Positions 39,962 to 61,297 of a DNA stretch of 61,297 bases are shown here, in pieces (position 1 is the first letter of the stretch; each line of letters opens with the position of its first letter). Source of the DNA: Thermococcus sp. EP1 (lineage in GTDB: Archaea; Methanobacteriota_B; Thermococci; Thermococcales; Thermococcaceae); the NCBI RefSeq assembly GCF_001317345.1, contig NZ_JXCG01000011.1, positions 1-61,297 of the forward strand, read 5' to 3'. The position numbers were made by a program, and so were the translations under genes. Below the pieces are notes generated by a model that was not told the origin of the DNA, made no database searches, and worked only from the letters and a program-made list of their open reading frames with translations.

Positions 39962-40623
39962 TGAAGATGATAAAAGGACTGATATTTGACGTGGACGAAA
40001 CCTTGGTTTACTATGAAGGATACGATGGAAGGGATTGGTTCAAAAACTGGGGAGAGGAGGAAATAAAAAAGCTTGGGATTGAGATTAATTTTGAAACTTA
40101 CAGGAAGATGGTAAAAGGAGAACTTCCAAGAAGTTGGGTAGAGAAGCTTGGAGTGAATCACGTTGAATTCTGGAAAGCTATAGATAAAGCCAAGCTTAAA
40201 TATAGGAAATGGGCAGCAGAAAGGGGATTAATAAAAGCCTTCCCTGATATTGGAACACTAAAAGAATTCAAACAGCTTGGCTTAAAGCTCGCAGCTGTTA
40301 GCAATGCTTCTCAAGAGTGTACAGAATTTGTATTGGAGCTTTTTAATATAAAAGATCAATTCGACGTTATCTTTGGTAAAGATTACAGGTATCTTGATGG
40401 TGCTAAACCAAACCCATATCTCATAAACAAAGCTCTTAAAGCACTAAACACTCTTCCTAAAGAAGCTCTTGTGGTTGGAGATTCCCTATCAGATATTCTA
40501 GCGGCACAGAAAGCAGGAGTGCAAGTTGTCCAAGTTATGAGGTTTGGCAGAATAGAAGGTGCAGATTACTATGTAAAAGACCTAAATGAACTTCTCCAAT
40601 TGGTACTCCAGATTAATAGATAA
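39961..40623 (+). CDS. HAD superfamily hydrolase
   Basis: 220-residue phosphatase of the HAD family. The nucleophile motif is FDVDETLVYY, motif II is AAVSNAS, the Lys lies in DGAKPNPYLI and motif IV is VVGDSLSDILAAQKAG. An alpha-helical cap sits between motifs I and II. Family members act on small phosphate esters such as phosphoglycolate; the substrate is unknown. The ATG at 39961 overlaps the TGA of the previous gene, and an ATG at 39967 is an alternative. Last gene of the operon; the H/ACA RNA promoter starts right after its stop. Confidence 0.88.
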   Translation: MKMIKGLIFDVDETLVYYEGYDGRDWFKNWGEEEIKKLGIEINFETYRKMVKGELPRSWVEKLGVNHVEFWKAIDKAKLKYRKWAAERGLIKAFPDIGTLKEFKQLGLKLAAVSNASQECTEFVLELFNIKDQFDVIFGKDYRYLDGAKPNPYLINKALKALNTLPKEALVVGDSLSDILAAQKAGVQVVQVMRFGRIEGADYYVKDLNELLQLVLQINR

Positions 40624-40636
40624 GGATTTATAAAGG
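40624..40636 (+). promoter_or_regulatory. TATA promoter of the H/ACA RNA
   Basis: GGATTTATAAAGG has a TATA box at 40626-40634. The expected start, about 25 bases downstream, coincides with the first base-paired residue of the RNA near 40654. Confidence 0.7.
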
Positions 40637-40653
40637 AAGTACCTAATTTATAA

Positions 40654-40874
40654 TGCCCCTGCGCGAGGACCCACCCAATTAATGAAGGTGGGGGCGATGC
40701 AGGGGCAACAGCTCGGCCATAGCGAGGTCCCCACGGAAGGGCCTTCCGCGTTACGGAGCACAATGACCGTGGGAAACCCTGGCCGAGTACACTATTCTGG
40801 CCCGCCTGGGTTAAGCCGCTTGAGAGTGCCTTATGGCTTCAATGAGGGCGGTCGTTACGGGCGGGCCACATTTT
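40654..40874 (+). ncRNA. Three-hairpin H/ACA box guide RNA
   Basis: GC-rich RNA with three consecutive hairpins, each ending in ACA (40708-40710, 40789-40791, 40868-40870). Lower stems are TGCCCCTGC/GCAGGGGCA, CTCGGCCA/TGGCCGAG and GGCCCGCC/GGCGGGCC. Upper stems are CCCACC/GGTGGG, CCCACGG/CCGTGGG and GCCGC/GCGGT, and in each case ACA begins about 15 bases after the upper stem, the expected H/ACA spacing. Each apex has an AATGA word of an L7Ae K-turn or K-loop. Pocket 2 (GGTC and AACCC) fits 23S rRNA GGGUU-UA-GACC; pocket 3 (GGGTTA and GTTAC) fits GUAAC-UA-UGACUC. A T-run follows at 40871-40874. Confidence 0.82.
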
Positions 40875-41085
40875 GACTTCTAACTTCTCCTTCAGCTCGA
40901 AAAATGAGACTTTCAAGTATAACGAGAAACGTTCTAATGAATTTTAAAAGCTTTAAAAAGGGATCAATATCAAACTATACGACCCTATAACTAGAAAGAT
41001 AAATTCTAGTCAGATAATAAAGCTTGTTTACGTCATATACCATCGAATAGGAATAAACAATTCAAACAGAAAAGTTTTTGCCTGG

Positions 41086-60568: not shown

Positions 60569-61069
60569 CTACACATATTTCATTAAAAGTGAAACTGCCT
60601 CATCTAAAATGCTCCTATCCTCCATGTCTACGACATTCTCAAGATAGTAAAGACCTTTAATGTTAAGGATTATATACGCCTCGTTCCGTTCCAACCCCAA
60701 GCCATAAGCCTCATAATAAACTAATTCCTCACCCAAAGCATCATTTAGCATCTCTACAAAGTAATTTATTTCGCTTGTAGTTAAATCTTCCCATCTACTT
60801 TCAATTTCATCAAAATATCTTTCGAGAATTTTTAATGTATCAAGATCAATTCTTAGAGTTCCCTCAACATAGGGAAATTCTCCAATTCTGAAGATTTTGA
60901 TACCTTCCTCATCCCTAATTCCAACATAATCCCATAAGAGAATCCCTTCTATGACATTCACTCCATATCTACTAGCAAGATATGTAAATCTCTCCATGGC
61001 CTCTTCTATGTCTTCTAAAAATTCTTCTTCATTATTAAAGCGGACAATTTTGCTAACTGTGCCACTCAT
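60569..61069 (-). CDS. Acidic hypothetical protein, first gene of the queE operon
   Basis: 166-residue, strongly acidic, soluble protein (EEEFLEDIEEAMERF, TLRIDLDTLKILERYFDEIESRWEDLT). No known family or catalytic motif is recognised. AGGTG lies before the ATG at 61069. The neighbour order 166-residue gene, 82-residue gene, queE suggests a link to tRNA deazaguanine modification or merely shared transcription. Confidence 0.72.
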   Translation of the reverse strand: MSGTVSKIVRFNNEEEFLEDIEEAMERFTYLASRYGVNVIEGILLWDYVGIRDEEGIKIFRIGEFPYVEGTLRIDLDTLKILERYFDEIESRWEDLTTSEINYFVEMLNDALGEELVYYEAYGLGLERNEAYIILNIKGLYYLENVVDMEDRSILDEAVSLLMKYV

Positions 61070-61163
61070 AAGTTACACCTTGAAAGGCATTATGCTTAAG
61101 GGTTATAAGTCTTTATCTTTTTTGGCGGGAAGACCCCTTCCGAGAGGAAGGAGATGAGAATCC

Positions 61164-61192
61164 CAAAGGTTTAAATACTATTACTAATAGTA
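61164..61192 (+). promoter_or_regulatory. BRE/TATA promoter overlapping an operator-like palindrome
   Basis: AAAGGTTTAAATACTA gives a BRE (CAAAGG) and TATA box (TTTAAATA, 61170-61177). A perfect palindrome TACTATTA-C-TAATAGTA (61176-61192) overlaps the TATA edge and ends just before the expected start near 61198. It is placed where a repressor would block TBP/TFB or RNA polymerase. Confidence 0.6.
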
Positions 61193-61197
61193 ATGAC

Positions 61198-61297
61198 TGG
61201 TCCAACAATTTAAGAGGTAGCCGGCGATTCCTCCGTTAGGGGGATAGCTGGTAGTGGCCGTGTGAACCGGCCAGTGAGAGTGAGGCTACCGGCAACG
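61198..61297 (+). ncRNA. Unidentified structured RNA (cut by window end)
   Basis: This stretch is GC-rich against an A+T-rich genome and folds into a three-way junction. The closing stem is GGTAGCC (61216-61222) with GGCTACC (61284-61290). Hairpin A is TTCCTCC-GTTA-GGGGGA (61228-61244) and hairpin B is TGGCCG-TGTGAAC-CGGCCA (61255-61273). There is no open reading frame of note and no match to tRNA, 5S, SRP or RNase P that I can recognise. The 3' end lies outside the window. The 5' end is inferred from the TATA box and is approximate. It may be a stand-alone RNA or a 5' leader element. Confidence 0.5.

Follow-up and report, generated by a model that had tools for sequence, protein, structure and literature searches.

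A probable TnpB guide RNA in a tnpB-less IS200/IS605-type element of Thermococcus sp. EP1

In the sections of the ISDra2 study that deal with the RNA (PMC10097598), the anatomy of the TnpB omegaRNA, or right-end element RNA (reRNA), is an overlap of the tnpB 3′ end with the right end of the element, with the guide after it, and the ISDra2 pseudoknot is placed at -5 to -3 relative to the guide. In Pyrococcus abyssi, sRk48, sRk52, sRkB and sRkC come from repetitive intergenic loci that are related, in the sense orientation, to the 3′ ends of OrfB (tnpB) and have a B recognition element (BRE)/TATA promoter of their own, with expression seen by Northern blot and kink-turns that have been shown (PMC3124441, Phok 2011). 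Palindrome-associated transposable elements (PATEs) are known as ends-only IS605 elements, and it is the ends that are described in the relevant parts of PMC7290912 and PMC3119063; TTTAT is the predicted target-adjacent motif (TAM) of solo tnpB elements in Sulfolobus islandicus, according to the corresponding part of PMC10640517. The RNA described here lies at the end of contig NZ_JXCG01000011.1 (C11) of Thermococcus sp. EP1, which was analyzed over its entire length of 61,297 nucleotides (the window), and is almost certainly the omegaRNA of an IS200/IS605-type element that has lost tnpB by deletion, an identity that holds irrespective of whether the RNA is active or a relic. Stand-alone omegaRNAs have been discussed before, and for this reason no first report is claimed.

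Identity and anatomy of the element

Of 94 genomes in the order, 31 are matched by the RNA together with the right end, as taken from a second copy in the Thermococcus sp. EP1 genome (contig C10), some of them through short right-end pieces only, and in many of the 31 it makes up the 3′ end of tnpB. In one such gene (L045) an open frame of 453 residues runs through the RNA, which is covered by codons ~388-433, and the product carries OrfB_IS605 and Cas12f1-like_TNB domains. The overlap of tnpB with the right end is thus found in relatives, the window copy itself being devoid of tnpB, and it is because the RNA corresponds, in full elements, to the 3′ end of tnpB together with the right end that it is assigned as a TnpB guide RNA. 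Also, the sequence directly after the right end is variable: copies are conserved up to a terminal TTCAC and continue into unrelated flanks, and their left ends start after TTTAT.

The window ends inside the RNA, within a repeat. The last 28 bases of C11 are identical to the start of contig C12, and in relatives the gene that precedes the break (query 60577-61090) adjoins one near the C12 start, with ~120 bp between the two flanking queries in genome G076 and ~150-160 bp in G074, G075, G077, G079 and G080. Given this overlap and gene order, C11 very likely runs on into C12. The joined sequence predicts an element of 234 bp, in the order TTTAT, left-end hairpin, promoter, a 136-nt scaffold with the right-end hairpin and then unique flank; the parts inside the window are on the forward strand. 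The motif TTTAT (61112-61116) lies directly outside the left end, the left 181 bp of the element occupy 61117-61297 and the final 53 nt lie on C12 (C12:29-81), where the right end reads ..CAGTTCAC. A hairpin at 61136-61151 (CCTTCC-GAGA-GGAAGG) resembles one at the left end of tnpB-bearing copies, and it is followed by a putative BRE/TATA promoter (61165-61177), with AAAGG preceding the TATA box TTTAAATA at 61170-61177, 45 nt upstream of the scaffold. With hairpins at its ends, the target motif and neither a transposase nor a tnpB gene, the window copy is PATE-like.

The original prediction had delimited an RNA at 61198-61297. This interval marks a real feature, of which the left end lies further out, at 61117, and the 3′ part lies on C12; judging by the position of the TATA box, 61198 is the probable transcript start. 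Extension past 61297, as had been proposed, leads to the right end and a predicted guide, in agreement with one of the options then put forward, that of a known RNA whose hallmark lay beyond the window. The other two, a new regulatory RNA and a riboswitch-like leader, give way to the omegaRNA of a tnpB-type element, with overlap of tnpB in relatives and the boundaries of a mobile element. What was an unknown RNA becomes a guide RNA of a named kind.

RNA structure, promoter and tnpB-less copies

High GC content in an A+T-rich background, an upstream TATA box and three stems had been taken as signs of a stable RNA that has a promoter of its own; this reading holds, and all three kinds of sign are present in the sequence. 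The GC content is 58% at 61198-61297 and 63% at 61215-61297, against 39% for the whole window, and 209 of 61215 stretches of 83 nt in the window are as GC-rich as 61215-61297. The stems are TTCCTCC/GGGGGA (61228-61234 with 61239-61244), TGGCCG/CGGCCA (61255-61260 with 61268-61273) and GGTAGCC/GGCTACC (61216-61222 with 61284-61290). Folding of the 100-nt piece alone only modestly surpasses that of shuffled sequences (z -1.8; 10 of 200 shuffles equally good), so structure from the single sequence is weak evidence.

The evidence becomes strong with the aligned copies of relatives. In an alignment of 40 of the 42 non-identical full-length rows (A1, without the two rearranged rows, L057 and the second place of L095), the six helices are paired in 96.5% of cells, against 36-49% when the partners are slid, and 12 of 36 pairs show double-sided change. 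The 35 tnpB-less copies aligned alone (A3; 35 of 40, leaving out L010, cut by a contig end, and the decayed L239, L237, L238 and L058) pair in 93.5% of cells against 35-49%, with double-sided change in 14 of 36 pairs. The window copy scores 100 bits against an RNA model (R1), over 61215-61297 and with its 3′ end truncated. In the window, stems P2 (61221-61225/61247-61251) and P3 (61229-61234/61239-61244) together span 61221-61251 and show double-sided change in the 40 copies at two of five and three of six pairs, respectively. Stem P4 (GGCCG/CGGCC, 61256-61272) follows, and then the 5′ strand of P5 (GTGAGAGT, 61274-61281), whose partner ACTCTCAC is on C12; P5 is paired in 98.1% of cells, with A-U replaced by G-C at one pair in 7 of 40 sequences.

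The P4 loop GAAC (61264-61267) is predicted to form a pseudoknot with the GTTC that closes the scaffold on its 3′ side, directly before the guide on C12, as the solved ISDra2 omegaRNA leads one to expect. These bases pair in 99.4% of cells over the 40 rows, and one of the four pairs shows double-sided change in 5 of them (GAAC/GTTC to GACC/GGTC). After removal of identical rows, 68 rows could be parsed for this feature and 19 could not; the 68 comprise 59 GAAC/GTTC, five GACC/GGTC, one GATC/GGTC, two doubtful and one broken (L096), the decayed rows L235 and L237 being perhaps misparsed. Unparsed rows L230 and L234 read GACC/GGTC by eye.

The three-way junction originally proposed fares less well. 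Two of its stems, TTCCTCC/GGGGGA and TGGCCG/CGGCCA, are borne out. The closing stem GGTAGCC/GGCTACC pairs in 236 of 240 cells (six pairs counted, 40 sequences), but over the four pairs counted for change no double-sided case occurs in the 40 sequences, and one such pair in the 35 tnpB-less copies. In folds of the whole RNA its strands are taken by P2 and P5 instead, and the deletion derivatives L060, L232 and L233 weaken or break it and retain a hairpin inside P5 (L232 and L233 by eye). The junction is thus at best one of two alternative pairings and partly an artefact of the cut, as its closing stem lacks double-sided change in the 40 sequences and is out-competed in the whole RNA; GGTAGCC/GGCTACC may be an alternative or tertiary pairing.

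The genus was searched with R1, scoring the first 150 candidates per genome. Matches, several of them weak, occur in 13 of 13 genomes. Sixty-seven copies from chosen sources, with contig-edge copies mostly omitted, were classified as 40 tnpB-less and 27 tnpB-linked; the remaining five of 72 matches, four of them weak and one being the C12 half of the window copy, stayed outside the classification. Here tnpB-less means that no tnpB match of at least 30 aa lies just upstream, and the class includes decayed and chimeric copies as well as a truncated tnpB end (L076). In G076, which is a single contig, 19 of 22 R1 matches reach at least 80 bits, 14 of them tnpB-less and 5 tnpB-linked, and tnpB-less copies with a promoter are the majority in this one closed genome examined.

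A TATA-like word occurs within 120 nt upstream of the RNA in 32 of 40 tnpB-less copies (a few by chance or in chimeric copies) as opposed to 2 of 27 tnpB-linked ones, and mostly lies either 43-46 nt ahead of the RNA, as in the window copy, or 76-85 nt ahead. TTTATC occurs close to the left end in 16 of 40 tnpB-less and 18 of 26 tnpB-linked copies, and on the opposite strand in 2 of 40 and 1 of 26. The group with the more distant promoter, to which the C10 copy belongs, carries two additional 5′ hairpins, such as CAGCC-gtaa-GGCTG and CAACCC-gtaa-GGGTTG, which are predicted to start immediately downstream of the 5′ end of the transcript. Most members of this hairpin subclass (L095-L097, L089, L054, L240-L244, L233 and L234) have both hairpins, and four copies, when folded, give z values of -3.1, -2.1, -1.6 and -3.0, with no hairpin pair formed in the third; the extra hairpins were not seen in L055, a tnpB-linked copy of the same subfamily. 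Architecture, promoter and RNA structure are kept after the loss of tnpB. The tnpB-less elements could be a class of their own in this Thermococcales clade, spreading as promoter plus guide RNA with TnpB and TnpA supplied in trans by other elements, a tentative extension that we consider rather unlikely; as part of it, the two gained hairpins may stand in for the processing or protection that otherwise goes with the tnpB mRNA.

A structured RNA of another kind lies elsewhere in the window, at 40600-40875, where HgcG RNA is recognized (RF00064, 202.7 bits) beside two tRNA genes on the opposite strand.

Partners, insertion site and competing explanations

Further copies in the Thermococcus sp. 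EP1 genome lie at C1:134066-134201 and C10:35179-35315, the latter (L007:4980-5116, minus strand) being tnpB-less and placed directly upstream of an SRP54-like gene at which it points. At C1:397810-397858 (L009:3811-3858) a mini-element joins the left-end hairpin directly to the right-end terminus ..GGGGTAGTTCAC, with no RNA between them. The single full TnpB of this genome (L011) was considered as the parent and set aside, being 29% identical and having other ends. Beyond the element's own site, the flank taken as guide has no match in this genome at up to two mismatches and one site with three, and a backward control also gave one match.

The window element sits between genes at a place that seems to have been hit repeatedly. 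G074, G075 and G080 have no element there and carry ..CTTTA.. at the site, and G084, judging from its sequence, has a different element with resolvase-like and TnpB-like frames (L146, G084:C2:23990-26060). No target duplication was seen in comparison with the empty sites of relatives, which have themselves diverged.

We consider it reasonably probable that the window RNA guides TnpB in trans, or did so until recently. Transcription would start at the left-end promoter, the guide would be the ~16-20 nt that follow the right end on C12 (GCTTACTATTAAGTGCCC), and a TnpB supplied in trans would load the RNA and cut an empty copy of the same site (TTTAT plus guide), after which recombination would restore the element. 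In favour are the overlap with tnpB, the covariation, the pseudoknot and the promoter at fixed distance, and also the lack of further matches to the guide and the expression of tnpB-related non-coding RNAs from similar loci in P. abyssi. Several observations weigh against this. Neither a TnpB of the element's family nor a Y1 TnpA was found in the draft genome, which is 95.9% complete with contigs that break in repeats, so that a cognate tnpB copy may have been lost from the assembly, and in the absence of such a partner the RNA may at present be idle in this genome. G076 retains at the window site only the initial left-end bases followed by flank, that is, a deletion scar, and has lost an inner part of the SRP54-upstream copy that it shares with Thermococcus sp. 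EP1 (L252; L251 of G084 was not used in this comparison). Also, several tnpB-less copies are decayed. The same element could accordingly carry a passive relic, in which the deletion of tnpB happened to spare the right end together with the RNA region that overlaps it, and movement depends, or depended, on the ends only. This appears less probable but is a serious competitor, to which the missing partners, the decayed copies with the stub in G076 and the existence of an ends-only mini-element without RNA all lend weight. However, the scaffold and the pseudoknot persist in tnpB-less copies, as does a promoter at constant distance, and all should be needless for ends-only movement, and one subclass has two 5′ hairpins beyond what its tnpB-linked relative shows. 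Partners in trans do exist nearby, given that Y1 TnpA occurs in 25 of the 94 genomes of the order and that some members of the genus carry an intact tnpB of this family.

That the RNA, with a TnpB-like protein, has been domesticated to regulate a host locus is highly improbable: a tnpB-less copy does occupy the same place upstream of SRP54 in Thermococcus sp. EP1 and G076, but its partial deletion in G076, the failure of G076 to keep the window copy and a window guide that matches only its own flank all speak against such a role. Readings without a transposon are scarcely credible. No Rfam family matches the RNA itself, either at the gathering threshold or at E values up to 10, which would suit a riboswitch-like leader or a new regulatory RNA that stands free of transposons, but the many copies with mobile-element boundaries and the overlap with tnpB in relatives do not. 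No match was found in the plasmids and viral contigs searched. Its kind is known; its particular family has no database match. Equally remote is a divergent SscA RNA (RF00063), suggested by a weak Rfam match at 61098-61201 (20.8 bits, E 0.3, cut-off 60) that covers chiefly the left end, ahead of the RNA, whereas 109 bits are reached by true SscA in P. abyssi. For trans guiding as proposed, G076, with its 14 tnpB-less and 5 tnpB-linked copies on a single contig, offers a direct test.

Comparison with known systems

The sRk48, sRk52, sRkB and sRkC loci of P. abyssi were examined as possible members of the family and rejected, R1 reaching at best 6.4 bits (E 0.61) there. As this match is not significant, the families differ, and the sRk RNAs and the window RNA are of the same kind but of different family; a function is thereby suggested for the tnpB-related non-coding RNAs reported from P. 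abyssi in 2011. Like the PATEs, so far as the parts of those papers on the ends describe them, the window element is short, has hairpins near its ends and lacks a transposase gene, and unlike them its family retains a promoter and a covarying omegaRNA. It shares the predicted TAM TTTAT with the solo tnpB of S. islandicus, which, in the part of PMC10640517 that concerns it, belongs to another lineage and has tnpB present, the TAM tested there being TTTAA of another group. In anatomy the window RNA resembles the ISDra2-type omegaRNA, which likewise overlaps both the 3′ end of tnpB and the right end, carries the guide after the right end and has an upstream GAA that forms a pseudoknot with the 3′ end of the scaffold, in the same position with respect to the guide; the window RNA differs in belonging to another sequence family, in the absence of tnpB from its own copy and in that its part in cleavage is a prediction.
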